Below are positions 4,874 through 37,100 of a DNA stretch of 64,000 nt, piece by piece. Under the pieces are notes generated by a model. It worked only from the letters and a program-made list of their open reading frames with translations, ran no database searches and had not been told where the DNA came from. A program made the position numbers and the translations under genes. This DNA comes from an uncultured Flavobacteriales bacterium (GTDB taxonomy: Bacteria; Bacteroidota; Bacteroidia; Flavobacteriales_D; Crocinitomicaceae). Location of the stretch: assembly GCA_905478665.1 (NCBI GenBank), contig CAJQJL010000075.1:1-64000 (forward strand). Direction: 5' to 3'. The first letter of the stretch is position 1. Each line of letters starts with the position of its first letter.

Positions 4874-4989
4874 TCGTTTGATTTTTCTTTTTGACAACCA
4901 ATGTCAATGCACTTTGCACAGTGCAAGAGCTTACTTTGAATTTTACTTACAAGATTAACCCATGAATTGGGGCTAAAAAACATACAACT

Positions 4990-7014: not shown

Positions 7015-7022
7015 TGAAAAAT

Positions 7023-7054
7023 GGGGGGTAGGATCATGTTCTGCCCCCTTTATT
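7023..7054 (+). terminator. rho-independent terminator
   Basis: GGGGGTAG...CTGCCCCC stem followed by TTTATT. Confidence 0.65.
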
Positions 7055-7061
7055 AATTGAC

Positions 7062-7069
7062 TATATTTG
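7062..7069 (+). promoter_or_regulatory. candidate -7 box TATATTTG for 7073..7480
   Basis: TAnnTTTG match just after a terminator and 4 nt before ATG. Confidence 0.35.
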
Positions 7070-7072
7070 AGT

Positions 7073-7480
7073 ATGCTTAAGAGAATTATTTCTGGGTTGT
7101 TAGTTCTTATTGTACTTACTGGTACAGTTGGCGTAAACTATGATTCTCATTACTGCGGGGGCGAGTTTGTTAAATCCCAAATTTCAATTCTTCCCAGTAC
7201 GCTTTCTTGTGGGATGAAGATGGAAATTGGCAAGAAGTGTAATGATCGGGAGTCGTTTTCCCGTGTTTGTTGTTCTAATGATCACATAAGTTTTGAGTTG
7301 AATGAAGATTACAATGTTGATCAAGTTCTAGCTCCTGCGTTTATTTCCAATTTTTCCATTCCTGTTTCAGTCATTGAGGAATATAATTTTATAGACGAGA
7401 TAGGATATTCCTTTTTAGGGTATTCACCTCCTCCCATAGATCGAGATATTGTCGTTTTCTATCAATCCTTTCTTATTTGA
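7073..7480 (+). CDS. HYC/CC/PP-type small secreted protein
   Basis: HYC, VCC and PPP motifs; ATG at 7073 preferred over TTG at 7067. Confidence 0.72.
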   Translation: MLKRIISGLLVLIVLTGTVGVNYDSHYCGGEFVKSQISILPSTLSCGMKMEIGKKCNDRESFSRVCCSNDHISFELNEDYNVDQVLAPAFISNFSIPVSVIEEYNFIDEIGYSFLGYSPPPIDRDIVVFYQSFLI

Positions 7481-7677
7481 TTTAATTTCAGCCATTCCGT
7501 TGTATTCAGGAATGGTGTTTTAGTGCATCTCCAGTATGCGCTTACTTAGTATTTCGCGTACTAAGTTATGTTGAATACAATTCACATTTTTTCTTATAGC
7601 ACTCCGCTGATACAGGTTTCCACTTGAATTATGAGCTGTCTACAACAAGAACATTAGTAATCAAATAATGAAATTTC

Positions 7678-8190
7678 ATGCACCATTTAGTTAGACTTTT
7701 TATAAAAATAGTTGGAGTATTCGTTCTTATTCTTACTTCAACTAATCAGTTTTTTGCCCAATCCGAAATTCCTGAAATGCAATTGCAAAGCATTGAGGGT
7801 AGCAGAATAAGTACGCAGGAAGTGTTTGATAAAGGACAACCAATATTACTCGTTTTTTGGGCTACATGGTGCAATCATACATCTGTTGGGCTGACGGATA
7901 TTCAGGATGAATACTTAGATGATTGGCGGGATAATTTTGATCTGAAAATTGTGGCTGTTTCTGTTGATGATTCAAAAACCTCCAATCGCGCCGTAACTGT
8001 TGCGAATAGTAGTGGATGGGATTTCGATGTTTTTCTAGATGTTAATGGTGATTTTAAAAGAGCCATGGGGGTGAATACTGCGCCTCATGTCGTTTTATTA
8101 AATGCAGAAGGAAAGGTTGTTTGGCAACAACCAAAATACTTGAGTGGAGATGAAGAGATAATTCAGGAAAAATTGGAAGAGCTGAAATAG
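7678..8190 (+). CDS. TlpA/thioredoxin-like periplasmic protein (CNHT active site)
   Basis: Thioredoxin fold motif LVFWATWCNHT and VNTAPHVVLLNAEGKVVW. Confidence 0.85.
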   Translation: MHHLVRLFIKIVGVFVLILTSTNQFFAQSEIPEMQLQSIEGSRISTQEVFDKGQPILLVFWATWCNHTSVGLTDIQDEYLDDWRDNFDLKIVAVSVDDSKTSNRAVTVANSSGWDFDVFLDVNGDFKRAMGVNTAPHVVLLNAEGKVVWQQPKYLSGDEEIIQEKLEELK

Positions 8191-8244
8191 GAGAATACAC
8201 TAAATGATTCAGCGAATTAAATGTGAATTACTAAGGTTAGACAA

Positions 8245-11200
8245 ATGATAAAATTTATTGTAAAATTTTTTCTTGACAATAAGCTGGTTGCATGGATAAT
8301 GCTTGCGATGTTTGTTCTATGGGGACTGGTTACTGCGCCATTTGAATCTGGTTCAGATGTAATCCCTAGAGATCCTGTTGCCGTAGATGCGATTCCAGAC
8401 ATTGGAGAAAATCAACAAATCGTATTTACACAGTGGATGGGACGCTCTCCACAAGATGTTGAAGACCAGATAACTTCTAAACTAACCTCTGCTTTATTAG
8501 GTATTCCCGGAGTGAAGAGCGTACGAAGCAATTCCATGTTTGGCTTTTCAAGTATTTACCTCATTTTTGAAGAAGATATTGAGTTCTACTGGAGTAGAAG
8601 TAGAATCTTGGAGAAGCTGAATTCGCTTCCAGACAATACGGTTCCTCCCGGTGCACAGCCAACTCTTGGACCAGATGCAACTGCTCTCGGACAAATTTAT
8701 TGGTATACTCTTGAAGGGCAAGATCCAGATGGAAACACTACAGGAGGGTGGGATCAACAAGAATTGAGGTCTATACAGGATTTCTATGTGAAGTATGGAT
8801 TACAATCAGCAAGTGGAGTGTCTGAAGTTGCCTCTATTGGAGGTTTTGTGAAAGAATACCAAGTAGATGTAGACCCTGAAAAAATGCGAAGCTACGGTCT
8901 GTCATTGAATCAAATTATGAAATCCGTTAAGGAGAGTAATCTTGACATTGGAGCTCAGACAATCGAAATCAATCTAGTAGAGTATTTCGTTCGAGGATTG
9001 GGGTATGTGAAATCTGTTGAAGACATTGAGAATAGCGTTGTGAAAGTAGTTGACAATGTCCCAGTCCGAATAATGGATGTCGCGACAGTACATCTAGGCC
9101 CCGCTACACGTCGTGGAATATTGGATAAATCGGGAGCACCCGCTGTTGGAGGTGTGGTAGTGGCGCGCTATGGAGCAAATCCACTTGAAGTGATCAATAA
9201 TGTAAAATCGCAAATCGATGAATTGGCAGGTGGACTACCGAGTAAAACGCTTGCCGATGGGACTGTATCAAAAGTTACTATTGTTCCATTCTATGATAGG
9301 ACAGAGCTAATTAAAGAAACAATTGGTACACTTGAAGAGGCTCTGACCCTTGAAATACTCATTACCATTATTGTGGTGATTTTGATGCTGCTTCACCTGA
9401 AGTCATCCCTGCTAATAAGTGCATCATTACCTGTTGCGGTATTGATGTGTTTTATTGCAATGCGATACTTTGGTGTTGATGCAAATATTGTTGCATTATC
9501 GGGGATAGCAATTGCGGTTGGAACAATGGTAGATATGGGAATTGTATTGACCGAGAGTATGGTCTCCCAGATGAAGATTGCACCTCCTGAACAAGCACTC
9601 AAAACAACCATTTACTTAGCAACTGTAGATGTGGCGTCAGCTGTGGTTACGGCTGTTGCAACCACCATTGTAAGTTTCCTTCCAGTATTCACCATGGAAG
9701 CTGCCGAAGGCAAAATGTTTAGACCGCTCGCATTTACGAAAACATTTGCGCTATTATCTTCTATATTATTAGCCATCACGGTAATCCCTCCTTTGGCTGA
9801 ACAATTGTTCAAATTAAAAAGTAAGGGTAAAATCTCTGCATATCTCTCGAATGGATCACTGGTACTCTTATCACTGACCCTTTTGTTTACACACTATGCA
9901 TTTTTTGGAGTATTTGGTTTGGTTGTAGGGATAACGGGTGGGATATCTACCTATGCAAAAGGTGTTAAATCAGAAACATGGGTAAAACGCTTTGATTACG
10001 GAAAGAACATCTCCTATGCACTTGTTGTTTGTTGGTTGCTGGCAAGAATATGGATGCCGCTTGGGGTGGTGAAGAGTACTTTTTCGAATTTTCTATTTAT
10101 CGCTATAATCATTGGTTGTTTAATTGGATTTTTCTACGTCATCATACATTTCTATGAGCGCATTTTACGGTTCTTTCTAAGATGGAAAATTATCTTTCTT
10201 TCATGTACGGTGTTTATAATTATCGGTGGATGCAGTGTGTTTATGGACACGAAACGTGAATTTATGCCTGCCTTGAATGAGGGGTCATTCTTACTTATGC
10301 CAACATCAATGCCTCATTCTGGGAATGAAATAAATGAGGCTAATTTAAGAATGTTGGATATGGCCGTTTCCGCAATTCCAGAAGTTGAGTTAGTGGTTGG
10401 AAAAGCTGGAAGAATAGAAAGCTCCCTAGATCCCGCCCCAATGTCCATGTATGAAAATATCATCAGCTATAAGTCAGAATACAAAACTAATGAAGATGGC
10501 CGTCGTGTGCGATTCAAAGTAGACGAAAATAATGAATATCTGTATGATGATTTAGGGGAACTAATTCCTGATGAGAACGGCAAGTACTTTCGGCAATGGC
10601 GAGATCATATAAAATCTCCTGATGACATATGGACTGAAATAGTCGCTGCAACTAAGATTCCCGGCTTGACTTCTGCACCTAAATTGCAACCAATTGAAAC
10701 ACGTTTGGTAATGCTCCAAACTGGAATGCGAGCACCGATGGGAATAAAGGTAAAAGGAACTAGCCTTAAAGAAATAGAAGAGTTTGGCTTACAATTAGAA
10801 ATGTTCTTAAAAGACGTCCCTGGTGTTAAGAACTCAGCGGTCTTTGCAGATAGAATAGTTGGGAAGCCATATATGATGCTTAACATTGATCGCCATGAAA
10901 TTTCACGTCATGGACTGACGATTGTCCAAGTACAGAATCAATTGCAAACTGCTATTGGGGGCATGATAATGACTACTACGGTTGAAGGTAGGGAACGCTA
11001 TGGAATTCGTTTAAGGTATCCTTTGGAATTAAGAAATGAACCTGAAAAGATCAAATCAATTTACATTACTGACGCTTTTGGGGCTCAAATTCCTCTTGGA
11101 GATTTAGTTAACATTACCTATGAACAAGGCCCAATGTCAATTAAAAGTGAAGATGGATTTCTGGTAGGATTTGTCCTTTTTGATAAAGTAGATGACGATG

Positions 11201-12018
11201 ATGTCAAAGAAAATGAGGATCCAAAAGATTTTAAGGAGGACGGTACTGCTTACTCAGAGATAGAGATAGTGGAAAATGCCCAAAAATTATTTGACCAGAA
11301 AACGAAGGGTGGTCAATTAGTGGCGCCAGAAGGAGTTACATACCGATTTGCAGGGAACTATGAACAGCACGAACGCTTTATTAAAAGACTGATTATCGTT
11401 ATTCCGATCTCTCTTATTTTAATTTTCCTCATTCTATATTTTCATTTTAAATCGGCGATCACATCCTTATTTGTTTTTTCTGGAGTATTGCTGGCATTTT
11501 CAGGTGGATTCATTATGATCGGGTTGTATGGACAGGATTGGTTCATGAATTTTGAGATGTTCGGCACAAACATGAGAGAGTTGTTTCAAATGCATCCGAT
11601 CAAATTAAGTGTGGCTGTTTGGGTGGGGTTTTTAGCGTTGTTTGGTATTGCTACCGATGATGGGGTTCTTGTGGCGACTTTTTTAAAAGATAGTTTTAAA
11701 AAGAATCACCCTACGAGTGTCAACGGAATTCATGATGCTGTTGTGGAAGGCGGTTTGCGTAGAGTAAAGCCAGCAATGATGACTACTGCAACAACAATTT
11801 TAGCTCTTCTACCTGTGCTCACTTCTACTGGAAAAGGGGCGGATATCATGCTTCCAATGGCTATTCCTTCATTTGGTGGGATGGTATTAAATACAATAAC
11901 CATGTTTACTGTTCCTGTGCTCTATTGTACATGGAAGGAAGCACAGCTCAAATTCGGTAAGAATCGATCAATTAAAGAATCTGGAACTGAAGGTTCTCCT
12001 AATACGGAAATATCATGA
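8245..12018 (+). CDS. cusA: CusA/CzcA-family heavy-metal efflux RND transporter
   Basis: 1257 aa; FTQWMGRSPQDVEDQITSKLTSALLGIPGVKSVRS and other RND/CusA motifs. Confidence 0.93.
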   Translation: MIKFIVKFFLDNKLVAWIMLAMFVLWGLVTAPFESGSDVIPRDPVAVDAIPDIGENQQIVFTQWMGRSPQDVEDQITSKLTSALLGIPGVKSVRSNSMFGFSSIYLIFEEDIEFYWSRSRILEKLNSLPDNTVPPGAQPTLGPDATALGQIYWYTLEGQDPDGNTTGGWDQQELRSIQDFYVKYGLQSASGVSEVASIGGFVKEYQVDVDPEKMRSYGLSLNQIMKSVKESNLDIGAQTIEINLVEYFVRGLGYVKSVEDIENSVVKVVDNVPVRIMDVATVHLGPATRRGILDKSGAPAVGGVVVARYGANPLEVINNVKSQIDELAGGLPSKTLADGTVSKVTIVPFYDRTELIKETIGTLEEALTLEILITIIVVILMLLHLKSSLLISASLPVAVLMCFIAMRYFGVDANIVALSGIAIAVGTMVDMGIVLTESMVSQMKIAPPEQALKTTIYLATVDVASAVVTAVATTIVSFLPVFTMEAAEGKMFRPLAFTKTFALLSSILLAITVIPPLAEQLFKLKSKGKISAYLSNGSLVLLSLTLLFTHYAFFGVFGLVVGITGGISTYAKGVKSETWVKRFDYGKNISYALVVCWLLARIWMPLGVVKSTFSNFLFIAIIIGCLIGFFYVIIHFYERILRFFLRWKIIFLSCTVFIIIGGCSVFMDTKREFMPALNEGSFLLMPTSMPHSGNEINEANLRMLDMAVSAIPEVELVVGKAGRIESSLDPAPMSMYENIISYKSEYKTNEDGRRVRFKVDENNEYLYDDLGELIPDENGKYFRQWRDHIKSPDDIWTEIVAATKIPGLTSAPKLQPIETRLVMLQTGMRAPMGIKVKGTSLKEIEEFGLQLEMFLKDVPGVKNSAVFADRIVGKPYMMLNIDRHEISRHGLTIVQVQNQLQTAIGGMIMTTTVEGRERYGIRLRYPLELRNEPEKIKSIYITDAFGAQIPLGDLVNITYEQGPMSIKSEDGFLVGFVLFDKVDDDDVKENEDPKDFKEDGTAYSEIEIVENAQKLFDQKTKGGQLVAPEGVTYRFAGNYEQHERFIKRLIIVIPISLILIFLILYFHFKSAITSLFVFSGVLLAFSGGFIMIGLYGQDWFMNFEMFGTNMRELFQMHPIKLSVAVWVGFLALFGIATDDGVLVATFLKDSFKKNHPTSVNGIHDAVVEGGLRRVKPAMMTTATTILALLPVLTSTGKGADIMLPMAIPSFGGMVLNTITMFTVPVLYCTWKEAQLKFGKNRSIKESGTEGSPNTEIS

Positions 12019-13247
12019 TAGGAAAGTTTATTACATGCTTTGTTCTCTGCTGGTTGTGTATTGCAAATGCTCAAGGACAACTCTTGGACTCATTGTTGAA
12101 AATGGTGGTTGAAAACAGTCCAGAATTGAAAGCCCTTCAGTTGGAATACGAAGCAGAATTAATGAAGGTGGATCAGGTACGGACTATCCCGAATACGCAG
12201 TTTGGCATAGGTATTCCGGCTCTAAGGCCAGAAACACGACTGGGACCGCAATTAATAATGGTGAGTGCAAGCCAAATGTTTCCATGGTTTGGTGCTCGAA
12301 AGGTGAAAGGTGATGTAGTTGTAAGCATGTCAAAAGCCAAATACGAACGTATATCAGTGATTCGTTTAGAGTTGTTTAACAAAGTGGAACTTGCGTACTA
12401 CGCGTTGGTTGACCTCAAACAAAAAGCAGGAATTATTAGTGAAATTCTAAAACAATTTGAAGTGCTTAAACAATTGGCATTGACAAAAATGGAAGGTGGA
12501 AGTGGCAGAATGACCAACGTACTTCGAGTAGAATTGAAACAGGACGAACTGAAGCAGCAATTGAAAAGGATTGAAGCTTCTAAGCAAAAATATTTTGCGA
12601 TTATTAATTCGCTCACTCTGGCTCCTTGGGCAACGACAATAGATGTGGATGATGTTGGTGTAGAATTGTTCGAATTTAACCTAAAGGAATCGCGAAAAAA
12701 AATTAGCGAACACTATCCATTGATCACAATGATTGATCGGCAAATCGCTGCTTCAAGAAACAAACAATTGGTTAATAGGAAAATGGGCGCGCCTATGATT
12801 GGCGTTGGGTTGGATTATTCAATAGTTGGGGAAAGAACAGATATGATCCCTGAATACAATGGGCGCGATATTCTGATTCCCAAATTGATGATCAGTATTC
12901 CTCTTTATCGTAAAGGATTCAAGGCTAAGAATATTGAGGAGGGGCTTATACAGTCTGCGCTAGAGTTTAATCAAGAGAGCATTGAACAGCGCGTTATTGG
13001 ACAGTTGCTTCATTACCATACGGATTATAAGCTAGCTCTTTTGGAGATCGAACTGAATGAAGAGCAGATTGGAACAACAAAAAAAATTATGGATTTACTA
13101 CTCACTGAATACAGTACTGAGGGAGGCTCTTTCGATGAGTTGCTTCAGGTTCAGAATCAATTGTTGGGTTATGAGTTGGAACTGAGTACAGCAAAAAAAA
13201 TGGTAAACATGGCGGTTTCAAATATGGAACGATTAATAAACTACTAA
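12015..13247 (+). CDS. TolC-family outer-membrane efflux protein
   Basis: ATGA overlap with cusA; coiled-coil OEP features. Confidence 0.85.
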   Translation: MIGKFITCFVLCWLCIANAQGQLLDSLLKMVVENSPELKALQLEYEAELMKVDQVRTIPNTQFGIGIPALRPETRLGPQLIMVSASQMFPWFGARKVKGDVVVSMSKAKYERISVIRLELFNKVELAYYALVDLKQKAGIISEILKQFEVLKQLALTKMEGGSGRMTNVLRVELKQDELKQQLKRIEASKQKYFAIINSLTLAPWATTIDVDDVGVELFEFNLKESRKKISEHYPLITMIDRQIAASRNKQLVNRKMGAPMIGVGLDYSIVGERTDMIPEYNGRDILIPKLMISIPLYRKGFKAKNIEEGLIQSALEFNQESIEQRVIGQLLHYHTDYKLALLEIELNEEQIGTTKKIMDLLLTEYSTEGGSFDELLQVQNQLLGYELELSTAKKMVNMAVSNMERLINY

Positions 13248-13250
13248 CAT

Positions 13251-13808
13251 ATGGAATTGACAATTAAAAATATGGTTTGTGATCGATGTATCAAGGTAGT
13301 TAGAGATCATTTGAATGAGTCAAATCTACCATTTATGAAAGTGGAACTGGGCAAAATTTATTTCAAACGTGATTTGAAGACGGCTGAATTACGACGGCTA
13401 AATAAACAACTGGTTGATGAAGGCTTTGAAATTCTTAAAGAAGAAGAATTGAAAATTGTTGAAGGAGTAAAGTTTGTGGTAATAAGCGAGGTGCGTGGCT
13501 ATTCGAGTAGAACTGTTACTGAAAGTTATTCAAATATATTGAGCAAGGATTTGGGAATAAGCTATTCTAAGATTAGTAGGTTATTCTCCCAAGTGGAGGG
13601 AAAAAGTATTGAGCGCTTCATCATTCTTCAGAAAATTGAAATGGTTAAAGAGTTAATGACATATGGTGAGTTAACGATGAGCGAAATAGCTTATGAAATG
13701 AACTATAGCAGCCCTCAACATTTATCAAAACAATTCAAACAGGTTACAGGTCTGTCACCAACTGAATTTAAGGGAATTGCCTCCAGAGAAAAATTAGATA
13801 ACATATAA
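13251..13808 (+). CDS. HMA-like N-terminal domain fused to AraC-type HTH regulator
   Basis: N-terminal MxxxIKNMVCDRCIKVV; C-terminal MSEIAYEMNYSSPQHLSKQFKQVTGLSPTEFKG. Confidence 0.88.
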   Translation: MELTIKNMVCDRCIKVVRDHLNESNLPFMKVELGKIYFKRDLKTAELRRLNKQLVDEGFEILKEEELKIVEGVKFVVISEVRGYSSRTVTESYSNILSKDLGISYSKISRLFSQVEGKSIERFIILQKIEMVKELMTYGELTMSEIAYEMNYSSPQHLSKQFKQVTGLSPTEFKGIASREKLDNI

Positions 13809-13860
13809 GTCAAATTGTACACGTACTACCAATTGAAATACCAGAACTTGGTCTAAAAAG

Positions 13861-16242
13861 ATGAAACATACATACAAAATATCGGGAATGTCTTGTGATG
13901 GCTGTGTAAAACATGTCAAGGAATCACTACTAAGTGTTTCTGAAATTGAACATGTACAAATTGACCTAAAGGATGGATTAGCTGAAATTACAATGGATAC
14001 GCATGTGACCATTGAACGAATGAATGAAACACTGGAAGGATCTCAATACACCATCCATTCGCTTACAGATGAACTTCCACCTCAAGAAAAAGCAATTGTC
14101 AACAATAATGCAGCACGTTTTTATTGCCCAATGCATTGCGAAGGAGATAAAACATATGATAAGGCTGGAGACTGTCCAGTATGCGGTATGGATTTAGTTC
14201 CGAGTCAAAAGCTTATGAGCGAAGAGGAATCTACATATAACAAGTTGATGAAGAAATTGCGCGTTGCAGTTGTCTTTACATCGCCAATTTTTCTCATTGC
14301 GATGCTAGACATGTTTGATCCCAATCCTTTGGAACAGATTCTTCCAAAAACGTCTTGGAATTGGTTGCAATTTGGGCTGTCTATCCCCGTTGTGTTTTAT
14401 GCGACATGGATGTTCTTTACTAGGGCATGGTCTTCCATTGTAAGAAGAAGCTTTAATATGTTCACGCTGATAGGTATTGGAGCTGGAGCTGCATGGATCT
14501 TTAGTTTGATAGCACTTCTCTTTCCCGAAATTTTCCCTGATCAATTTAAAGGAAATCAAGGGGCTGTGCATCTATACTTTGAAGCAGCAACTGTTATTCT
14601 CACGCTTGTATTGGTTGGTCAGGTGCTCGAAGCAAGGGCTCATAATAGAACCAATTCAGCAGTAAAAGAGCTGTTGAAGTTGGCGCCCAATGCGGCAACG
14701 TTGGTGGTTAATGGTGAAGAACGTGAAATTTCCATCGATCAAATTAAGGTTGGAGACCATTTAAGGGTGAAGCCCGGAGACAAAATCCCTGTAGACGGGA
14801 CTATTTTTTTAGGAACCAGTTCTATTGATGAATCGATGATATCAGGTGAACCAATTCCTGTTGATAAATCGGTTGGGGATACTGTTAGTTCTGGAACTAT
14901 CAATGGCACGCAAAGTTTTGTCATGGTTGCTGAAAAGATTGGAAGTGACACACTCCTTTCTCAGATTATTCATATGGTAAATAATGCGAGTAGAAGTCAA
15001 GCCCCTATTCAAAAGTTAGCTGATAGAATTTCAGCCTATTTCGTTCCTATTGTGATCGGTGTTTCCCTGCTTACATTTTTTATCTGGTTGTTCCTTGGAC
15101 CAGAGCCAAGATTTACCTTCGCATTTGTAAATGCCGTGGCTGTATTAGTAATAGCATGCCCATGTGCACTTGGATTAGCAACTCCAATGTCGGTGATGGT
15201 AGGTGTTGGAAAAGGGGCTCAATCAGGAATTTTAATAAAAAATGCTGAATCCCTTGAACAGATGAACAAGGTGACAACACTAATAATTGACAAAACAGGA
15301 ACGGTAACCGAAGGTAAGCCTTCTGTAGAAAAGCTGATTTCTTCAGAATCTTGGTCAGTTGAAAAACTAACTTCTATCGTGGCTTCGATCAATCAGCAAA
15401 GTGAGCATCCTCTAGCAGCAGCTACAGTTGATTTTGCTAAAAAGGCTGGCGTTGACATGATTTCTGTTAAAGATTTTCAATCGGTCACAGGAAAGGGGGT
15501 TATGGGGACTTATGACACACGCAAAGTACTTATCGGAAACGCAAAATTATTGGAGGATAACGCTGTTCATATCGATACTGAATTAATGCGAAAGGCTGAA
15601 CTAGAACAAGCAAAAGGAAAAACTGTTCCTTACGTTGTCGTCGACAATAAACTGGTTGGGTTTGTTGTCATATTTGATGCAATTAAGGCAACGAGTAAAT
15701 CTGCATTACAGGCTCTACAGAAAAAAGGAATCCACATTATAATGATGACTGGGGATAACGCCTTTACAGCGAAAGCTGTAGCCGATGAGATAGGAATTAC
15801 CGATTATCATTCTGATTGTTTGCCAAAAGACAAATTGGATCATGTAGAGCGGTTGAAAAATCAAGGTGAAACTGTAGCCATGGTTGGGGATGGGATTAAT
15901 GATGCTCCAGCTTTGGCCCTTTCAGATGTGGGTATTGCAATGGGCACGGGTACAGATGTAGCCATTGAAAGTTCAGAGATCACATTGATTCGGGGTGATC
16001 TAAATGGAATTGTGAAAGCCAGAAATTTAAGTGAGAAAGTATTAAAAAACATCAAACAGAACTTAGTGTTTGCGTTGGGGTACAATATACTAGGAGTGCC
16101 CATTGCTGCGGGTATACTTTATCCCTTTTTCGGGATATTGCTCTCACCTATGATCGCGGCATTGGCAATGAGTTTTAGTTCTGTTTCCGTTATTTCCAAT
16201 GCATTAAGATTGAAGTCAATAAAATTAAATAGTTCGACATGA
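13861..16242 (+). CDS. copA: copper-translocating P1B-type ATPase with HMA and YCPMHC...CGMDL heavy-metal-binding domains
   Basis: [38 protein letters not shown] motif; [15 protein letters not shown]. Confidence 0.93.
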
Positions 16243-17972
16243 AAAATAGGATATTAACAATTGTGATAACAGCAGTTTTGAGTATAGCACTTGGGTACTT
16301 TCTCTTTAGTAGTGCATCAGTTGATGAAACTGAAACGCATGCGGGCCATAGCTCGGCAGAGGAAATTTGGACGTGTTCCATGCATCCGCAAATACGTAAA
16401 CCTGAACCTGGTGATTGTCCGATTTGTGGAATGGATTTGATTTTGGCAGATAATTCTGGCAGCGGTAACCCTCTCGTATTTGAAATGACAGAGGATGCTA
16501 TGCGAATCGCAAATATCCAGACGACAATAGTGGGTTTAAACTTAGGTTCGGGACAGGGGTTAAGATTATCCGGCAAAATTAAAACTGATGAAACTGTGGC
16601 TTCAAGTATTGTCACGCATATTCCGGGAAGAATAGAGAAGTTGTATGTCAGTTTTACTGGAGATCACGTGAGTAAAGGTCAAAAAATTGCAGCTATTTAC
16701 TCTCCTGATTTGATTACTGCGCAGCGAGAATTATTAGAGGCCTATAAGTTTAAAGAAGATAATCCACAATTGCTGGAGGCAAGCAAAAACAAATTGCGTT
16801 ACTGGAAAATTTCCAATCAGGAGATCAATAAAATAATTAAATCAGGACATGTTAAAGAGTATTTTGATATTCGTGCGGATCATTCTGGTGTAATTCAGAA
16901 AAAAAAGATTGCTGTTGGTGATTATTTGGGAAAGGGTGGAGTACTTTTTGAATTACAGAATTTAAATAAGCTGTGGGCTGTATTTGATGCTTATGAGGCT
17001 GACCTGAATAGCATTGAGCTTGGAAAAAACATAACGTTTACAACACCTTCGATACCGGGAGAAAAATTCAATGGAGCGATTTTCTTCATTGATCCTTTTA
17101 TCAATCCTACTACAAGAACAGCGTCTGTTCGCTTAAAAATTAATAATTCCAGCAAGCGTTTAAAGCCTGAAATGTTCATTAACGGTAGGTTAGAACAGTC
17201 TTCAAGTGAAAACGTAAATTCGCGTTTGACTGTGCCAAAAACCGCTGTCCTTTGGACGGGTGAGCGATCTGTAGTTTACGTGAAAGTCCCCGACGCTAAG
17301 GCTCCTTCCTTCGAGTATAGAGAGGTTCAATTGGGAGCAACTATTGGATCTGAACATGAAATATTGGAAGGATTATCTGTTGGTGACGAAGTTGTTACCA
17401 ATGGGGCTTTTGTTATTGATGCTTCAGCTCAGCTTAATAATCAGGTGAGTATGATGAATCGGAATTTGCTAACAACTCAAGGGGCAGAGTTGTCTTCTGT
17501 GCCCGATTATTCATTGAAGACACCTAAAATGTTCAAAAAACAGCTAGATAATTTGCTTGATAATTATTTTGAAATCAAGGACAGGTTGGTTGGAGATGAC
17601 TTAAAATCAGCAATAGATGGAAGTACGGTTTTTTTAAAGTCACTTCAGCAAATCGATATGTCGCTTCTAAAAGGAGATGCCCACATGTATTGGATGAATG
17701 AGGCGTCTTTGCTAAAGGACGCAATAACTGGTATGACCGAGGCAAATAACATTGCTGAAGTGCGTGTTTTATTTAAACAATTATCTGCATCACTTATTAA
17801 AGCTATGAGGGCTTTTGGCGCGAACGATAATGATGATAATTACGTTCAATTTTGTTCTATGGCCTCTGATAATTCAGGAGCTTACTGGATGAGTACTACG
17901 GCTGAAATCCGTAACCCATATTATGGCGCTCAGATGCTGAAATGTGGAGAAATTAAGGATACAATTAACTAA
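16239..17972 (+). CDS. cusB: CusB-type RND periplasmic adaptor with N-terminal heavy-metal-binding domain and C-terminal DUF3347-like domain
   Basis: [24 protein letters not shown]; adaptor core; C-terminal helical region ending [14 protein letters not shown]. Confidence 0.9.
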
Positions 17973-17993
17973 ATAACATAAAAACAAACTACA

Positions 17994-18332
17994 ATGAAAA
18001 AATCAATTTTTGCGATACTAGCGCTAACACTGATGGCATTTACAACAAGTGCGCAATCAAAGCAGGAGAAAACCACATTTAAGGTTTACGGGAACTGTGG
18101 AATGTGTGAAAGAACAATTGAAGGTGCCGTGAATGAACAAGTAGGAGTCCATTCAGCGAATTGGAATGTTGACTCAAAGAAAATGACCATCAAGTTTGAT
18201 CCATCGAAGGTGTCACTTGATGAGATTAAGCAGTTAATCGCTGATGCAGGTTACGATTCTGAATCACATCGATCAACAGAAAAAAAATACAATTCGCTTC
18301 ACGGTTGTTGCCAATATGAACGACCTGAATAA
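17994..18332 (+). CDS. secreted heavy-metal-associated (HMA) domain protein
   Basis: Signal peptide; YGNCGMCERTIEGAVN. Confidence 0.85.
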   Translation: MKKSIFAILALTLMAFTTSAQSKQEKTTFKVYGNCGMCERTIEGAVNEQVGVHSANWNVDSKKMTIKFDPSKVSLDEIKQLIADAGYDSESHRSTEKKYNSLHGCCQYERPE

Positions 18333-18355
18333 TATTAACAAATAAATATATAACA

Positions 18356-18559
18356 ATGAAAAAGTCAATTTTAGTACTAGCGGTTGCGGCTATTGGAATG
18401 GTATCATTCACAAGCTGCTCAAATGATAGCGGTAATGAACCAACCGCTGAAGGTCAAGTAGAAAAAGAATATTATTGCCCTATGAAATGTGAGGGAGAAA
18501 AAATGTACGCGGAGGAAGGAAGTTGTCCTGTTTGTGAAATGAATTTGGTGAAGGATTAG
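18356..18559 (+). CDS. small lipoprotein with stand-alone heavy-metal-binding domain
   Basis: Lipobox TSCS; YYCPMKCEGEKMYAEEGSCPVCEMNLV. Confidence 0.8.
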   Translation: MKKSILVLAVAAIGMVSFTSCSNDSGNEPTAEGQVEKEYYCPMKCEGEKMYAEEGSCPVCEMNLVKD

Positions 18560-18742: not shown

Positions 18743-19729
18743 TTAATGAACTACGTTTATAGAGTGTATTAATTTGCCTTGAACAGTATAGCAATTAAAA
18801 ATATAGTATCCGGATTTTATCCCACCTATCGTAACTGAGCCGCTTGGACCTTTTACTTGACTTTTTTCTACAACCCTGCCATTCATGTCTATCAAAGAAA
18901 AAGACTTCATCGCCTTCATTTCTTTCCACTCTATCTTGACTGCGTTCTCAGTATTTGTGAAAAACACATCGCCAACTTCTTGTACTTCATTTAAACCTAA
19001 AGTTGATGTAGCGGTGAATACCGGCCTGTTGTCTACATTATTCATAACTGCCGGGATTGGAGCTTGATCTGTGTGCTGAACGCCAAAGACACCTGGATCA
19101 GTATTGTAGATCCACTCATCCAAGTTACACGTGACGTTTATATGATAGATATTCGTAGGAACATCCAAAACTCCTGTCATAGTTAAAGAAACATTTTTAT
19201 AACTAGCATCGCCTAAACAATGTGGTTGAAACAATTGATCACAAATATCATCAGCATTATTGTCTCCCATAGCATCCAAAGCCATGATGAAATACCCACC
19301 AGTCCAACCCCATTGCATTACAGGGTTTTGTTGATTGCCAAGAGGATGACCAGTTGGATATAAATTAGGGTCTAGGTGGTTGAAATCTACATGAACACCA
19401 ACTCCAAAATCAACCTGTTCAAGTGTCGTAATATTATGAAATCCAAGATTGAAAACATGACTTTGAACTTTCACTAATTTAACATCATCTGCTGTCGGAA
19501 AATCAATTATTTGACCTCCATCATGTGTTAATTTCAATTTCGAGATGTAATAATTGAAAGCCTCAACTTGAAAGGCGGTTCCACTCAAATCATGAAATAC
19601 TGTCGAACCCAAATCTAGAGAAGAAAACTCATTCCCTTCCACAGTTGGATTAAAATGTATGTAAACCTCCGGTTGTGAAAAGCCTATAGTTGAAAAAAGT
19701 AGTGCACTAATAATTAGTAATCTCTTCAT
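18743..19729 (-). CDS. MbnP-like copper-associated protein with T9SS-like C-terminal domain
   Basis: VYIHFNPTVEGNEF...FNYYISKLKLT...WGWTGGYFIMALDAMG pattern of MbnP family; C-terminal FSLIDMNGRVVEKSQV...GYYIFN. Confidence 0.8.
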   Translation of the reverse strand: MKRLLIISALLFSTIGFSQPEVYIHFNPTVEGNEFSSLDLGSTVFHDLSGTAFQVEAFNYYISKLKLTHDGGQIIDFPTADDVKLVKVQSHVFNLGFHNITTLEQVDFGVGVHVDFNHLDPNLYPTGHPLGNQQNPVMQWGWTGGYFIMALDAMGDNNADDICDQLFQPHCLGDASYKNVSLTMTGVLDVPTNIYHINVTCNLDEWIYNTDPGVFGVQHTDQAPIPAVMNNVDNRPVFTATSTLGLNEVQEVGDVFFTNTENAVKIEWKEMKAMKSFSLIDMNGRVVEKSQVKGPSGSVTIGGIKSGYYIFNCYTVQGKLIHSINVVH

Positions 19730-20403: not shown

Positions 20404-21048
20404 ATGAATGTTAAGCTAAGAAACGACGAAAAGATTCGAATCCTGAATGGAGTAGATTTATTTGAGATCATGGCGAGGGTGTTACGGAGGTCACATAAAA
20501 TTGATCGCAAGAAGGAACATTTTTGGGTTGTTGGACTGGATGTTACACAAGAAATATTATTCATTGAATTGATAAGCCTTGGAACTTCAAAAACGACGCA
20601 TTCTGATCCAATGGAGATTTTTAGTCTTGCGTTGAGTAAAAAGGCATATCAAATTGTGTTAGTTCATAACCATCCGTCTGGAGCTTTGAGGCCGTCAGAG
20701 AGTGATCGTACAACTACTCACCGTATGGTGCATATTGGAAGATTTTTGAACCTTCCTGTTTGGGATCATCTAATAATAACAGAGGTGAGTTATTATAGCT
20801 TCTTAGATTCTGGTTTACTTGACCAATTGGAAGCTGACTTGAGTAATATTCCAGATGCCCTAACGGCTGAAACCATGAAGCGAGAAACAGCGGAAAGGAA
20901 TTATGTAATTACAACGACTAACATTGTCATTAAACTTCATCTTCGTAAAACGGAAAAAGATCATATTTCGGAAATAACAGGGGTTGAATTGGAGGAGATA
21001 GACAAAATTATAGCTGATTTTGAGAATGGAGATATAGACGAGCCCTAA
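20404..21048 (+). CDS. RadC-like JAB/MPN domain protein (mobile-element type)
   Basis: LVHNHPSGALRPSESD motif. Confidence 0.85.
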   Translation: MNVKLRNDEKIRILNGVDLFEIMARVLRRSHKIDRKKEHFWVVGLDVTQEILFIELISLGTSKTTHSDPMEIFSLALSKKAYQIVLVHNHPSGALRPSESDRTTTHRMVHIGRFLNLPVWDHLIITEVSYYSFLDSGLLDQLEADLSNIPDALTAETMKRETAERNYVITTTNIVIKLHLRKTEKDHISEITGVELEEIDKIIADFENGDIDEP

Positions 21049-21084: not shown

Positions 21085-21273
21085 TGTGAAATCCAAATCC
21101 TAGAATTGATCTGTGACGGAAAAACTAACAAGGAGATTTCAGGTTTAATATCCCTAAGTAAAAGAACAATTGAGTCGCATCGTCGCACTATTTCCATTAA
21201 AACAGGGTGCAGTAATGTTGCGCGTTTGGTGGTTCATGCTATTAAGCATGGACACTATTTGATTGATGAATGA
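21085..21273 (+). pseudogene. truncated LuxR/NarL-type HTH
   Basis: Hand translation: LCEIQILELICDGKTNKEISGLISLSKRTIESHRRTISIKTGCSNVARLVVHAIKHGHYLIDE*; no start or receiver domain, not in ORF track. Confidence 0.7.
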
Positions 21274-21339: not shown

Positions 21340-21419
21340 GTATGATTGGGTATCATTGAAAATGATTGTAAACCATTGCGTATGATTGTAAACCATTGCG
21401 TATGATTGTAAATCATTAA
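21340..21419. repeat. 4 x 20-bp tandem iteron-like repeats
   Basis: gtatgattgggtatcattga / aaatgattgtaaaccattgc / gtatgattgtaaaccattgc / gtatgattgtaaatcattaa. Confidence 0.88.
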
Positions 21420-21451
21420 AATAACTCGAATTGATTACTCGTTCTATTTAG

Positions 21452-22312
21452 ATGGACATAGATAAATCAAAATTAGAGTTTGATGAGTTATCAGAATACT
21501 ATCTCAATCAACTTGAAAGAAACTACTTAGAAAAAATTGAAACTTCTGGAAATAAGCAATATGCTAGGGAGTACTATAGAGCTGTTCTTTTTGAGCGAAA
21601 CCCCAAAATACCTAAAGACTCTTTCTTTTTTGAAATATTAACCAAAACCTTTCTTCATTTCTTTCGCTTAAACACGAATTCTGAAGATGCAGTCTTGGCA
21701 ACGTTCGATAACCTTTATGAGATCAAAGAACGAGCGAAAAAAGAACTGCTGCTTGCACTTGAATTGTATGAAGCTGAATCCATTAGTGACGAGGAAATAT
21801 ATTCCATTCAATCCATGGTTGAAAAGGAAAATCATCTACTATCGCTTGAATATTATGAGCTTAGTGATTTACTTGCCTTTTTCTTAGCTATTAGAAAATT
21901 ACTCGAAAAGTATCCTAAGGATGAGAAGATCGAGCTTTTCAGTATTGACGCACCACTAGAAGACAAGCCTAGGAGCGGAACCCAGAGAATACATGATTAT
22001 ACACTTGTCTTCACTGAACGTCAACAGATGTTTGCTCTGTATTTTCTAATGGAACAATTGGGACTCAGCGCAGCACGAGATTATAATAAGTCCGATCTAG
22101 CTCGTTTTGCTCATTTGCTCTCCAAACAGCCTTGGACTAAGTTAGACAACTCTGGGAAGTACAAAACATTAAAGAATCTGATCAGTAAAAAGTCAAGTAC
22201 GCAAAACATAAACGATCTTGATTCTATTCTCGGTTTCTTTGAAGCTCTTGACCTTCAGAAAGCTGTGAAAATGATTAATGCTGAGATCGAATATCAACAG
22301 AAAAAACAATAA
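21452..22312 (+). CDS. hypothetical mobile-element protein
   Basis: 286-aa ORF directly downstream of repeat array; no family confidently recognised. Confidence 0.7.
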   Translation: MDIDKSKLEFDELSEYYLNQLERNYLEKIETSGNKQYAREYYRAVLFERNPKIPKDSFFFEILTKTFLHFFRLNTNSEDAVLATFDNLYEIKERAKKELLLALELYEAESISDEEIYSIQSMVEKENHLLSLEYYELSDLLAFFLAIRKLLEKYPKDEKIELFSIDAPLEDKPRSGTQRIHDYTLVFTERQQMFALYFLMEQLGLSAARDYNKSDLARFAHLLSKQPWTKLDNSGKYKTLKNLISKKSSTQNINDLDSILGFFEALDLQKAVKMINAEIEYQQKKQ

Positions 22313-22391
22313 TTTCTGAAATTCGGGGTACTCAAACCCGACCCCGACCCTTTGTTTGTTTCCGATCTTCATGTTAGGAAAAAACAATTTT

Positions 22392-23207
22392 ATGGAACAT
22401 GGGAATAACGAGCGGAGGAATAAGGGTAAGAGTGTTCCTTCCAGAAAGAGTCAACAGATTTTCACTAAGAGTTACAGTGACGAACAAGTCGGTCGCTTAA
22501 AGCGATTATTACAAAATCAACATCAGAGAGAAGCGGAACGTTTTTATGCTATCAAAGTTGATGGGGAGTTCTGCGTATACAAAACATCAAATGTTCGCAT
22601 TTTCGATGAATACAAAGAATTCGTTGATGGAAAGACAGAAACCGTCGAAATAATACTCTATTTCGGTAGGTCGAACAACTGTAATCGACACATTTTCTAT
22701 TTAAAGGATCAACCGCAAAATGGTCTAAGTGGTGTTGATGTGGAAGCTCAAATTCAAGAAGCTCTGGAGAGACAAGAACAAAAGCATCATATAGAATCAC
22801 TGGAAGGAATTGTAGAAGAGCAAGAACAAATCATTGATGGGCAAGAAAAGGAACTCGAAGAACTGAGAGGGAAACACGACGTGAGGGGCATGATACAAGA
22901 TGGACTTTCTTTGTTGAATGCTTACAATAAGTCCAAGACTCCTGATTCTGGACTAGCAGGAACGAAACCCGCAAGTAGCGAAGTTGAATTTGAGGCTTGT
23001 AACGAGTCAGAAAAAGAAACTCAGAAAGAAGAGACCGAAGAACAGAAAAAATGCAGAGAACTGTACGAAGAGCTATACGCGTATTATGGAGAAAAGGAAC
23101 TTTACAAATTTTGTGGGTTGATGGATGCAATTAAAAATTCAGATGTTCTAAGGGACGGGGTTAATCAACTAATAAAAGAAGAAAAAGAACGACGAAAAGA
23201 ACAATAA
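22392..23207 (+). CDS. hypothetical protein with predicted coiled coil
   Basis: ATG at 22392; Glu/Gln-rich heptad region LEGIVEEQEQIIDGQEKELEELRGK. Confidence 0.68.
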   Translation: MEHGNNERRNKGKSVPSRKSQQIFTKSYSDEQVGRLKRLLQNQHQREAERFYAIKVDGEFCVYKTSNVRIFDEYKEFVDGKTETVEIILYFGRSNNCNRHIFYLKDQPQNGLSGVDVEAQIQEALERQEQKHHIESLEGIVEEQEQIIDGQEKELEELRGKHDVRGMIQDGLSLLNAYNKSKTPDSGLAGTKPASSEVEFEACNESEKETQKEETEEQKKCRELYEELYAYYGEKELYKFCGLMDAIKNSDVLRDGVNQLIKEEKERRKEQ

Positions 23208-23219
23208 AAATATGAAATT

Positions 23220-23498
23220 ATGAAAAGTAAAGACTTAATAGATGAATTAATGGCACTCCAATTTTTAAAGCAACAGGAAGTTTATGAACTTAAATTACAA
23301 CTGTTAGGATTGTCTCGCTCCAATGCCCAAAAAGTAGTTGGGCTGTTGTGTAGATCAAAATGTGAGGTGATTTCCATCTTTGCTCAAGAGATTGAAAGAA
23401 AAGACTTTCGTGAGGCTTTGGAAGTCGCCTCAGAAATTGGTGAACTCAATGAATTGATGAAATCTTATGAGCAAATATTATGTAGGACAGTTGATTGA
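23220..23498 (+). CDS. hypothetical small protein
   Basis: ORF within tightly packed cluster; overlaps next ORF by 4 nt. Confidence 0.62.
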   Translation: MKSKDLIDELMALQFLKQQEVYELKLQLLGLSRSNAQKVVGLLCRSKCEVISIFAQEIERKDFREALEVASEIGELNELMKSYEQILCRTVD

Positions 23499-24112
23499 AA
23501 TTAGCATTAGCAATAATGCAGGAGAAGAAAGAACTACTGCAAGAGAAAATTTTAGGTAACAAATTCAAACAGCTAATAGAGATGAAAGAAAGAGATGGAG
23601 ATAAGAAGGGGAGGAGCTATTTAAAAATGGAACAAGTGCTAACATTTGAGGTTTTAAAAAAGATATTCAGTGATTGTAATTTCAACATGGCACATTATTT
23701 GCGAATCATCAGTAAATTAAGGATTTTATTTGATTTATTATTTGAATCCTATTATTTTAAAGATAAAGAGGACGAAGGTTCAGAGATAGAGTTGAAAGGG
23801 CTGAAAAAAATATTGAACTATAAAGATCTAAGGTCAGTGATTAATTGGTGCAAAATGAAGGGTGTATTTGTGCTTGGGCAAGGAAATAATCAATTCGTGA
23901 ACAAGTACGAGTTCTTATTGGCATTCCATAAACCATTTATCAAAGACTTGAAGAGTAAACATAAGAACTGGAAAGAAATGTTTGTAGGATACTTGAAAGG
24001 GGATATGGTCAGTTTACTGGCTGGAGATACAGAAAATAGTGCAATTTCAAAACCCTATCGCCCCAATAGTAAAACGGAAGTTTCTTTTTTAGATAAAATC
24101 AGAAAATTATGA
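23495..24112 (+). CDS. hypothetical protein, cotranscribed with integrase
   Basis: 4-nt overlaps with both neighbours; start codon uncertain. Confidence 0.65.
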   Translation: MKLALAIMQEKKELLQEKILGNKFKQLIEMKERDGDKKGRSYLKMEQVLTFEVLKKIFSDCNFNMAHYLRIISKLRILFDLLFESYYFKDKEDEGSEIELKGLKKILNYKDLRSVINWCKMKGVFVLGQGNNQFVNKYEFLLAFHKPFIKDLKSKHKNWKEMFVGYLKGDMVSLLAGDTENSAISKPYRPNSKTEVSFLDKIRKL

Positions 24113-25443
24113 ATTCAAAAAAACCACTAATTGTAGATAAAAGAGATAAAGTAAACGGTCTATATACGTATTGCCAGAAATGTCAAAGACTAATTGAAAA
24201 CCGAGTATGTAGCAAAACAGGAAAACGCCTTAGTACGTGTAAAAATACTGATCAACACATGTTCAAAGCTATTATAGCAGTTCCAGGCACTAACGGAAAA
24301 AAGCGTAAGACTCGATTGTTTAAAACAAGAGATTTGTCAAAGGCAATCGAATTGAAATTGGAGTTTGAGCGAGGGTTAAAGTCAACAGATTATCAATCAA
24401 CCGATGTACATATTATTCAAAAGGAAGCAAAGCCAGAATTGTTGATCGAATGCATGGCTATGTATATTGGGTATCTCAATAATGTAGGGGTTGAGGCACA
24501 CAAGGTCAAAGTTAGAACTCAGAAACATATCAATGAGACGGAATATTACTTTGAGAAATTGTGCAAGTGTCTATTAAAAAATCGGATCGACCATACTTTT
24601 TTCAAAGTGGATCAATTGAATGATCGAATAGTCGCTTTGTTTCATTCCTATCTCATAGAGAATTTGAACTATGCCAACAAGACTTATAATAAGATAATTG
24701 GTTTGTTTCGACAATTTCTTAATTGGCTAATACTGAAGAAAGGTTATAACATTGAAAATCCATTTGTTGATGTGGCTCGTAGAAGGGAGAATGTCAACAA
24801 AACTATATTGACTTCGGACGAATTCGACGTGCTTTTAAAAACCATAAAACCTGAACACGGATACAAAAAACTTCCTTCAGGGGAAAGAAAAAATCAATAT
24901 CGAGACTGGCTTTCCGATTGCTTCAAGTTAGCCTTAGAGACGGGGTTGAGACGAGAGGAATTCATGACTTTAAAGTATTCAGACATTTTATGTGATGAAG
25001 AAGGGCTTCCTCAGTTTTTTGTAGTGGAGAACTTTAAAGTGAATAGAATAAAGGGGTTGGATTCTGAAACGGGAGAGAAAAAATTTGTACCGATTACACA
25101 AGGATTAATGAATTTACTTACTTCTATTGGATATGAAAAATACAAGGATACGGATCACTATATTATTGGGGCAGAAGAGAGGTCTTCAAGAAATACACTA
25201 ATCGGATTTGTGTCAAAAGCATTTACGCATTACTGGAAGCTAACAGGAATTGAAAAGAATGTACAATTGAAGCATTTACGAAAAACCTATCTTACTTCTT
25301 TGGTGGAGCATTTTGGCGACAAAGCTCCTGTGATTAGTAATCATTCAGGGATTGATGTTTTAAAGAAACACTATGTAAATGATAAGCAGTTAGCTAGTGC
25401 AGCAAAGAACTTTTCTGTATTCAAAACGAAGGAGGAAAAATGA
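24109..25443 (+). CDS. int: tyrosine recombinase/integrase with N-terminal Cys-rich segment
   Basis: ALETGLRREEF, LKHLRKTYLTSL, HSGIDVLKKHYV catalytic motifs; adjacent to tRNA. Confidence 0.9.
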   Translation: MNSKKPLIVDKRDKVNGLYTYCQKCQRLIENRVCSKTGKRLSTCKNTDQHMFKAIIAVPGTNGKKRKTRLFKTRDLSKAIELKLEFERGLKSTDYQSTDVHIIQKEAKPELLIECMAMYIGYLNNVGVEAHKVKVRTQKHINETEYYFEKLCKCLLKNRIDHTFFKVDQLNDRIVALFHSYLIENLNYANKTYNKIIGLFRQFLNWLILKKGYNIENPFVDVARRRENVNKTILTSDEFDVLLKTIKPEHGYKKLPSGERKNQYRDWLSDCFKLALETGLRREEFMTLKYSDILCDEEGLPQFFVVENFKVNRIKGLDSETGEKKFVPITQGLMNLLTSIGYEKYKDTDHYIIGAEERSSRNTLIGFVSKAFTHYWKLTGIEKNVQLKHLRKTYLTSLVEHFGDKAPVISNHSGIDVLKKHYVNDKQLASAAKNFSVFKTKEEK

Positions 25444-25476
25444 AGTTTTGTTACCCGTTATTGTTACCCAAAGCAT

Positions 25477-25506: not shown

Positions 25507-25531
25507 ATTGAAAACTCAGTGTTTTCAGTAG

Positions 25532-25604
<73 letters not shown>

Positions 25605-34115: not shown

Positions 34116-37100
34116 ATGAAAAGGCTGTGCTATCGCTTACTCGCTACGGGTGCGTTTCTTCTTCTTGGAACGTCACTAAATGCGCAAATTAATTTAACAG
34201 GTGGACAAACTGCTCAGCAGTTGGCCGAATACTTGGCTGGTCCAAATATTACTGTTACTAACGCTGTTTTGTCGGAAGGGAATACAGCACTTCCCGCTGG
34301 TGGAACTTCTAATGCAGCAGGACAATTTACAGGAACCAATTCTGATATTGGGTTTGATTCTGGAGTAATACTCTCCTCTGGAAACAGTGTGAATGAAGCG
34401 GCAGGACCAAACAGTTCTAACAGTACTGGAGCAAACTTGGGTAACTCAGGTACTGCGCAGATGACTGCTTTGGCGGGAGCAAATACATTTGATGCAATTA
34501 CGTTGGAATTTGATTTCGAAGTGCAATCATCATTCATTCAGTTCAATTATGTCTTCGCCTCAGAAGAATACCCTGAATTTGCACCACCAAATAACTCTGG
34601 ATTTAATGATGTTTTTGCCTTTTTCATCAGTGGTCTTGGAATTACTGGTGAAGAAAATATAGCCTTAGTACCAAGTACAACAAACCCAGTATCAATTAAC
34701 AACATTAATGGTGATCCTGCGAATCCATTTAACATCTACTACAATGACAATGCAGGTGGATTGGATATCGAATACGATGGATACACAACGATTCTTGAAG
34801 CAACAAGAGGTAACCTTACGCCTTGTGAAGTGTATCACTTGAAATTGGTTATTTCAGATGCAGGTGATGGCGTTTATAGTTCAGCCGTATTCTTACAAGA
34901 GAATTCACTTGTTCAGGGAATTGTTGAAGTGGAAACACAGACAATCAACTCTGATGATATCGCATTGGAAGGATGTATACCTGCAAGCTTTACTTTTTCT
35001 TTCGATGATGTAAGTAACCAAGATAGAATCATCAATTTCATCGTTGGTGGTTCTGCCGTAAACGGTGTTGATTACCAATACGTAGATAGCTCGATGACAA
35101 TCGTTGCGGGAGATACTTCAGCAACAATTTACATTGATGCATTTTCAGACGGAATTACGGAAGGTCAGGAATCGGTATGGATTATTTACCAACCTGCTGC
35201 CTGTGCCGACTATGATACTGCATTCCTATTTATAAATGATGCCCAACCCATTGATTTCTCGCTGGACGGCTTCAATCTCGATTGTTATGATGACAACTCG
35301 GGTGAAATACTGGTCACCGCCACGGGAGGATTCCCACCTTATACCTATGATATTACCTACCCCAACGGAAGTGAGGGCAGTACGCAATCCAATCCCATTA
35401 CAGGGTTAGGAGCTGGAACCTACACAATTCAGGTCTTTGATTCATACGGATGTGAAGCGGATGCGCTTGTTATTGGTGGGGTTTACGATGCAGATACTAC
35501 TTTCTTACCAGACGTTCCAAACGGACAGGTAATTACATACGATGCACCGTTGGCAATCGCTGGATTCAATCCAGGACAAACGATTGTTGATGTTAACCAG
35601 ATCCAACAGATTTGTGCAACAATGGAGCACTCGTACCTCGGAGATTTACAAATTACGGTCGAAGCTCCAACAGGTGAGATCGTTATTTTGAAACAACAGA
35701 ATGGTGGTGGATCATGTGACCTTGGTGAGCCAATTGCAACTGGCCCTGTTGATGGTCAAGCGGGTTCTCAATTGACAGACCCAGGTTCGGGATATGAGTA
35801 CTGCTTCAACGCCTCTCCGATTTTCGGAACAATGGTTCAGGAGTCAAATAACTTTACACGTAACTATACGGATGGAATGGGTAACTCGTACACAGATGAG
35901 TACCTTCCAGCAGGATCGTATACGCCGTTTGAAAGCATGACGAATCTTGTTGGTGCTGATATGAATGGTACGTGGACTATGCACGTAACTGATCAGTTTG
36001 CATTGGATAATGGATACATCTTTAATTGGTACATCAGTCTTATTGGTGATCAACCAGATACTCTTGTAACCTTAACACAACCAGTGGAAATTGTAACGAC
36101 AGGATTCGTAACGAATTCTACCTGCGGTGGAAATGATGGTTCTATTAATACAAACATTACAGACGCCGTTGCACCTTATACAGTGTTATGGAGTAGTGGT
36201 CAAACCACAGAGGATATATCTGGTATCCCAGCAGGGACATATACAATTACAGTAACGGATGCGAACGGATGTCAATCACAAGAAACATTCTTGGTAAACA
36301 ACATTGGTTCTTTAAGTATTACTTCTTCTGCAACTGGAGCTTCATGCTACGGTGGCAACGATGGAGCAATCGATATTACAGCAGCAGGTGGTCAAACACC
36401 TTATACCTTTACATGGGATTCGGGTCCAACATCAGAAGATATTTCTGGATTGACAGCTGGAGATTATACAGTAACAATGCAAGATCAGCAGGGATGTATT
36501 ATCTCTGAAGTGATTACAGTTACGGAAGCTACTCAAATAGTAGTTACGCCAGTTGCGGTTCTGGATGAAGAATGTAATACAGACAATGGGTCAATTGATA
36601 TCAATGTGTCAGGTGGTACAGGTTCTTATGGCTACCAATGGTCAAATGGACCAGGCACACAAGATATTTCTGGATTAACGGCTGGAACGTATACGGTAGA
36701 TATTATTGACGGAAACGGATGTACTGCGAATGCGAGTTACACATTGGTAAATGATGTTTCAAATTGTTCTGCTTTCTGTTTTATCGAAGTTGAGGCGAAT
36801 GTGATCAACGACGAAATGTGTGGATCAGGGAATGGTAGTATTGATATCAATATCTTGAATGCGGTTGCGCCTGTATCATACTCGTGGAGTAACGGAGCTA
36901 CAACAGAAGATATTTCAAACTTAGCTGCTGGATCATATACCGTTGTTGCAACGGATGCGAATAACTGTTCGGAAGTAATGACTTTCACAGTAAACAACAA
37001 CACGGGTAATCTTGCAATTTCAGGAGCTTCTGTTGGAGAGGAGAATTGTGGAAATGGAAATGGATCAATCGATATTACGGTTGTTGGTGGAGCAATGCCT

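Follow-up and report, generated by a model that had tools for sequence, protein, structure and literature searches.

A proposed integration and excision cluster with a linked OrfD–Int pair and an array-associated OrfA gene at the right end of a tRNA-Met island in a Flavobacteriales bacterium

What is the role of a compact gene cluster that starts with an array of short direct repeats and ends with a tyrosine integrase gene? We addressed this question for positions 21340–25443 of a 64-kb stretch of DNA from an uncultured Flavobacteriales bacterium (contig CAJQJL010000075.1, positions 1 to 64,000), referred to here as the window. A previous sequence-only reading had described the cluster as a possible replication, excision, or mobilization module of a poorly described class of Bacteroidota elements or satellites. 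The repeat array, detected with TRF, and the five open reading frames (ORFs), OrfA, OrfB, OrfC, OrfD, and Int, are all present at the places given there. Our analysis identifies the cluster as the right end, probably controlling integration and excision, of a larger element located at 2928–25575.

The element is bounded by a perfect 47-bp repeat that corresponds to the 3′ end of a tRNA-Met gene. One copy, at 2928–2974, is a truncated tRNA and constitutes the left attachment (att) core, attL, while the other forms the attR core at 25529–25575, inside the intact tRNA-Met (CAT) gene on the minus strand (25531–25604). Since this is the only intact tRNA in the window, the two copies delimit an element of 22.6 kb, start to start. 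Position 1:72 of the tRNA is unpaired and its anticodon stem contains three G–C pairs; these initiator features indicate that it is probably the initiator tRNA (fMet), in agreement with the earlier assignment of the adjoining gene. A hairpin followed by a T-run before the attL core (about 2889–2927) looks like the terminator of the original tRNA. In a congener (G001, locus L170), the tRNA-Met, its terminator, and a homolog of the LamG gene in the left flank of the window are adjacent, and this locus is, judging from its arrangement, an unoccupied (empty) integration site. The catalytic residues of a tyrosine integrase, att repeats with the tRNA restored, and an empty site in a relative, as expected of a tyrosine-integrase genomic island, are all found here. 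The G+C content is 37.9% in the island, 35.3% in the part from the array to Int, and 40.2% in the right flank. Further to the left of attL are 17 bp from the 3′ end of the tRNA (2766–2782) and a second copy of the terminator-like hairpin (1432–1484), which together suggest remnants of earlier, serial insertions at the same tRNA.

Int (444 amino acids, plus strand, 24109–25443) is a tyrosine recombinase with a Cys-rich N-terminus and a Phage_integrase match. Arg281, Lys310, Arg391, and Tyr422 are invariant in 10 relatives, and His412 is invariant in the closer ones. OrfD (205 amino acids, plus strand, 23495–24112) is encoded immediately upstream, and the two genes overlap by the four nucleotides ATGA (24109–24112). 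The similar overlap reported for OrfC and OrfD depends on a TTG start of OrfD at 23495; the relatives of OrfD start further in. A search with Int only in 240 genomes of the family located 30 places. An OrfD homolog is found just upstream of all 21 full-length Int copies, ending about 60 nucleotides or less from the int start or overlapping it, and the nine copies without OrfD are truncated or degraded. This linkage identifies OrfD and Int as an obligate, inseparable pair. In many of the Int relatives a tRNA is located just 3′ of int, mostly tRNA-Met, with tRNA-Val in L191 and tRNA-Ala in L204. The related OrfD–Int islands L040 and L042, the latter at the same tRNA-Met site, carry defense cargo (SMODS cyclase, phospholipase effector).

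The sequence-only reading had recognized no relaxase, primase, capsid, or excisionase family in the four ORFs preceding int. This agrees with scans of Pfam, PHROG, and NCBIfam, where none of them has a significant family, but the use of relatives allows OrfD to be assigned and OrfA in part. A profile of 21 OrfD sequences aligns over 49 columns with the HTH_17/excisionase winged helix (probability 80.8, E-value 1.3e-5), with a score of 32.4 compared with 17.3 for the best of 300 column shuffles (0/300 as good). Weak HTH_17 matches are also observed in two of nine members scanned singly. The profile comparison thus places OrfD in the winged-helix fold class, with a conserved C-terminal FLxKmKxL tail, as an excisionase-like partner that would push Int towards excision. 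A profile search of the PDB returned nothing significant for OrfD, which was also not found in a search of the phage set; Int retrieved only remote Thermus-phage integrases in the phage and plasmid searches.

The sequences next to the att cores are compatible with this assignment. The pattern GTTACC-N7-GTTACC occurs exactly twice in the 64 kb, at 3056 and 25450, once near each core, while 0.15 matches are expected in the window, even with one mismatch allowed. The pairs have the layout of arm-type sites, with TTTCGTTACCT / TTTTGTTACCC on the left (3052–3075) and TTTTGTTACCC / TATTGTTACCC on the right (25446–25469), both on the plus strand and with a 13-bp spacing. On the left, an inverted copy is also present at 3034–3044. 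Relatives of Int have two to three direct repeats with a 12–13-bp spacing between int and the tRNA, and their sequence changes with the Int clade. Int is predicted to bind these candidate arm-type repeats.

OrfA (286 amino acids, plus strand, 21452–22312) is predicted to be all-alpha. Directly upstream, eight phased head-to-tail decamers (plus strand, 21340–21419) follow each other in the order GTATGATTGG GTATCATTGA AAATGATTGT AAACCATTGC GTATGATTGT AAACCATTGC GTATGATTGT AAATCATTAA, and the array ends 32 bp before the OrfA start. The 20-bp dimer ACCATTGCGTATGATTGTAA, found by TRF, recurs within it. The array has a z-score of 8.7–9.5 relative to dinucleotide shuffles, no comparable score is found elsewhere in the 64 kb, and its motif is absent near the att sites of the window. 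OrfA profiles match 18 of the 240 family genomes, so that the module occurs in about 7% of the family, but only a single further genome among 297 sampled across the phylum. Phased arrays (z ≥ 4), with repeat units of 10, 20, or 21 bp, are located upstream of 11 of 20 OrfA genes, compared with 5 of 204 controls, which were other genes in the same loci (Fisher p = 4e-10). Their motif tracks the OrfA tree: the window and its closest relatives, L031 and L109, have ACCATT/TATCATTA in common, L035, L052, and L053 have AGAACARTTAAG/GAATAA, the units of L034, L098, and L100 are ACATGRAGT-like, and L037, with its OrfA start corrected, has a GATCA array. Arrays are kept at four loci with OrfA but without OrfB and OrfX (L034, L098, L100, and L104), which makes OrfA the likeliest partner of the array.

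In the relatives, the usual order of the OrfA module is array, OrfA, OrfX, OrfB, one or two small HTH_17 proteins, and a recombinase. The latter varies and is a SAM_5-type tyrosine recombinase, a large serine recombinase, or a XerC/D-like protein. OrfX, a glycine-rich and probably membrane protein, is missing in the window; a scan of the genome contigs with OrfX finds only four loci. OrfB (271 amino acids, plus strand, 22392–23207) is composed of a conserved N-terminal domain, a coiled coil, and a C-terminal part, follows OrfA or OrfA–OrfX in relatives, and matches only coiled coils in a profile search of the PDB. OrfC (92 amino acids, plus strand, 23220–23498) is an orphan for which the search found no relatives. 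Its slot holds weakly similar proteins of 109 amino acids in L031 and 195 in L109, the likeness to the former being equaled by 37 of 2000 shuffles. OrfX is also missing from L031 and L109, where a small protein occupies the position of OrfC; the window thus keeps the order of its clade, with OrfD in the place of the HTH_17 protein. The C-terminal domain of OrfA is also found in L118 (G546), in a protein that finds the OrfA of the window reciprocally and whose gene has an integrase gene on one side and HTH_17 and DUF3987 genes on the other. Scans of viral contigs revealed no relatives of OrfX, Int, OrfD, or OrfA, and OrfB was not found in the plasmid set. The OrfA locus of L031 (G085) appears identical to that of L032 (G099) and shares many of its flanking genes. 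The two genomes are assigned to different families, which points to either recent transfer or a binning error.

The OrfA/OrfB part and the OrfD–Int part occur together only in the source genome among the 240 of the family, and the cluster therefore combines two modules that are mostly found separately. The proposal of a recombination module from a poorly described group of Bacteroidota islands at tRNA-fMet is retained, but its genes taken together do not form a single conserved unit.

The position of OrfA raises the question of its relation to RteC, the regulator of CTnDOT-type elements. OrfA and RteC (~280 amino acids) are of similar length and their profiles align colinearly, with a score of 26.9 compared with at most 22.1 in 150 shuffles, although hhalign assigns a probability of 6%. 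An HTH_17 gene comes next after roughly half of the true RteC genes, and one also follows OrfA in its relatives. These comparisons are suggestive of OrfA being distantly RteC-like; by the tests made, it is not a member of the RteC family. According to the sequence-only reading, clear hits to RteC, excisionase, Rep, or mobilization families in a standard order would speak against its view, and this is partly the case, with the excisionase-like winged helix of OrfD and the distant likeness of OrfA to RteC. Two true RteC genes with a nearby HTH_17 are located elsewhere in the source genome (G000:C78:8854-9480 and G000:C41:9407-10036), probably in separate CTnDOT-like elements.

Taken together, we propose, with a probability of about 60%, that the cluster serves integration and excision, that its recombinase slot has been swapped, and that an array-binding OrfA regulator controls the module, in which OrfD steers Int to excise the island. 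OrfA would bind the decamers located before its gene, thereby setting the expression of the co-directional OrfA, OrfB, OrfC, OrfD, and Int genes, and with it excision. OrfD, co-translated just upstream of int, would bias Int towards excision from tRNA-fMet, and Int would recombine the 47-bp att cores through the paired arm-type sites at both ends. OrfB and OrfC would be accessory proteins. The OrfA module would be common to islands with different recombinases, its slot being occupied here by a tRNA-Met-specific OrfD–Int pair.

Several observations weigh against this proposal. With no other genome containing both modules, their joint regulation lacks comparative support and their cooperation rests on synteny. 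No array is detected upstream of a third or more of the OrfA genes, and true RteC genes have no upstream arrays as a group. OrfA has no match to the Pfam RteC family (PF09357), and its hhalign probability is low despite the shuffle test. AlphaFold modeled OrfA from a five-sequence alignment with a pLDDT of 58 and the OrfD domain from its single sequence with a pLDDT of 44, values too low for either fold to be confirmed, so that the structural comparison suggested by the sequence-only reading was not informative. Neither Foldseek with the OrfA model nor a profile search of the PDB with OrfA found anything significant.

The repeats also allow OrfA to be viewed as a replication initiator of a new family, with the array as the iteron origin of an excised circle and Int and OrfD only moving the island. 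In theta-plasmid origins, an iteron-like array is usually located directly upstream of the initiator's own gene, and the phased direct repeats next to OrfA match this layout. The single array per element, the 20–21-bp unit of several arrays, and the DUF3987 or primase/AAA-like genes adjoining distant relatives of the OrfA C-terminal domain point in the same direction. In contrast, most arrays have a basic period of 10 bp, the island was found to contain neither a helicase nor a primase, and OrfA has neither a Rep family match nor a relative in 72,556 plasmids and 50,697 phages. No cluster protein matched a known Rep initiator in Pfam, PHROG, NCBIfam, or the plasmid search. We therefore consider an initiator unlikely. 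It is similarly doubtful that OrfA founds an unrecognized family of array-binding initiator or segregation proteins, with the array, phased to the DNA helix, as an origin or maintenance site once the island is excised, and that this replicon core has repeatedly exchanged its tyrosine or serine recombinase across islands of this Flavobacteriales family.

The signs of serial insertion at the tRNA (2766 and 1432) could instead mean that OrfA and OrfB are decaying leftovers of an earlier element, the present one consisting only of OrfD–Int and cargo. A response-regulator remnant adjoining the OrfA part, the missing OrfX and usual HTH_17 genes, and the lack of a second genome with both parts are compatible with this. 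However, both ORFs and the array are intact, OrfX is likewise absent from L031 and L109, where the array motif is unchanged, and the differing recombinases beside OrfA indicate that swapping is normal, which renders decay improbable. That OrfA and OrfB are a cargo or defense pair is very unlikely, since the many defense genes adjoining relatives of the module (type I methyltransferase with Septu-like ATPase, Tmn, HerA/methyltransferase, Cap4-like nuclease) vary from locus to locus while HTH_17 and recombinase genes remain the neighbors of OrfA, and OrfD–Int islands without OrfA (L042 and L040) carry defense cargo too.

The cargo (plus strand, 3406–18559) encodes proteins sorted by the type IX secretion system (T9SS), a thioredoxin-like protein, a CusA/CzcA RND pump, OEP, an AraC regulator, a copper P-type ATPase, identified from its own sequence, a CusB-like adaptor, and an HMA protein. 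From this gene content, the 22.6-kb element is predicted to be a copper/heavy-metal efflux (copper-resistance) island. An MbnP-like protein with a T9SS tail is encoded beside the copper genes (18743–19729). Between the cargo and the array are a short RadC, consisting of the JAB domain alone (plus strand, 20404–21048), and the LuxR-type response-regulator remnant, with only the C-terminal HTH (plus strand, 21106–21273; E-value 4e-14 to the response-regulator profile). RadC is also upstream of OrfA in L037, and the OrfA modules of L037 and L038 have intact response-regulator genes on their flanks. Outside the island, a 2635-amino-acid ORF (34116–42023) with internal repeats of ~225 bp resembles a large repetitive surface protein. 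Pfam and NCBIfam scans of the larger ORFs of the island revealed no relaxase, coupling protein, or mating-pore gene, and no primase, capsid, capsid-hijack, or packaging gene was found among the scanned island ORFs; these scans gave no sign of the suggested mobilization module or satellite.

The co-transcription of a tyrosine integrase with a small winged-helix protein encoded upstream, the att core, and the paired arm-type sites are reminiscent of the int–xis systems of lambda and Tn916. In contrast to these, OrfD taken as a single sequence matches no known Xis family significantly. It ends in a conserved C-terminal tail of its own and forms with Int a pair so far found only in Bacteroidota, mostly in one family. 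With CTnDOT (RteC, Xis2c/Xis2d, IntDOT), the relatives of OrfA have in common the order of an RteC-like gene, an HTH_17 gene, and an integrase, and OrfA has the same length and a distantly similar profile, but OrfA has no RteC family match and a phased direct-repeat array before its gene, and the island lacks RteA/RteB, tra, and mob genes. The cluster thus appears to be an int–xis type working with a regulatory gene in the position where CTnDOT-type elements hold RteC. GInt islands have several tyrosine recombinases in tandem, whereas a single one is present here. They resemble the present element in that the recombination genes of the island form a small operon (PMC5385486). The Bacteroides integrative and mobilizable elements NBU1, NBU2, and Tn4555 also use a tyrosine integrase and a tRNA 3′ end, with NBU1 targeting tRNA-Leu and NBU2 the 3′ end of tRNA-Ser, and excision of NBU1 and Tn4555 requires a recombination directionality factor and extra proteins (PMC5704250). 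Unlike our island, where scans found none, they carry a MobP relaxase. The 10K genomic island of Riemerella anatipestifer, also of the Flavobacteriales, is similar in layout, with a perfect direct repeat and a tyrosine integrase encoded beside a tRNA (PMC6764341), but it is located at tRNA-Arg.

These results provide a concrete, testable set of parts for little-described Flavobacteriales islands: the att cores and arm sites, a partner inseparable from Int, and an array that co-varies with the adjoining gene. The cargo of these islands is copper resistance here and, in relatives, phage defense (CBASS, type I restriction, Septu-like, Tmn, and others). If OrfA reads the array, this would reveal the way in which Bacteroidota islands lacking the classical Rte genes control excision, and the differing arrays of the relatives would offer a natural series for the co-change of a protein and its site.

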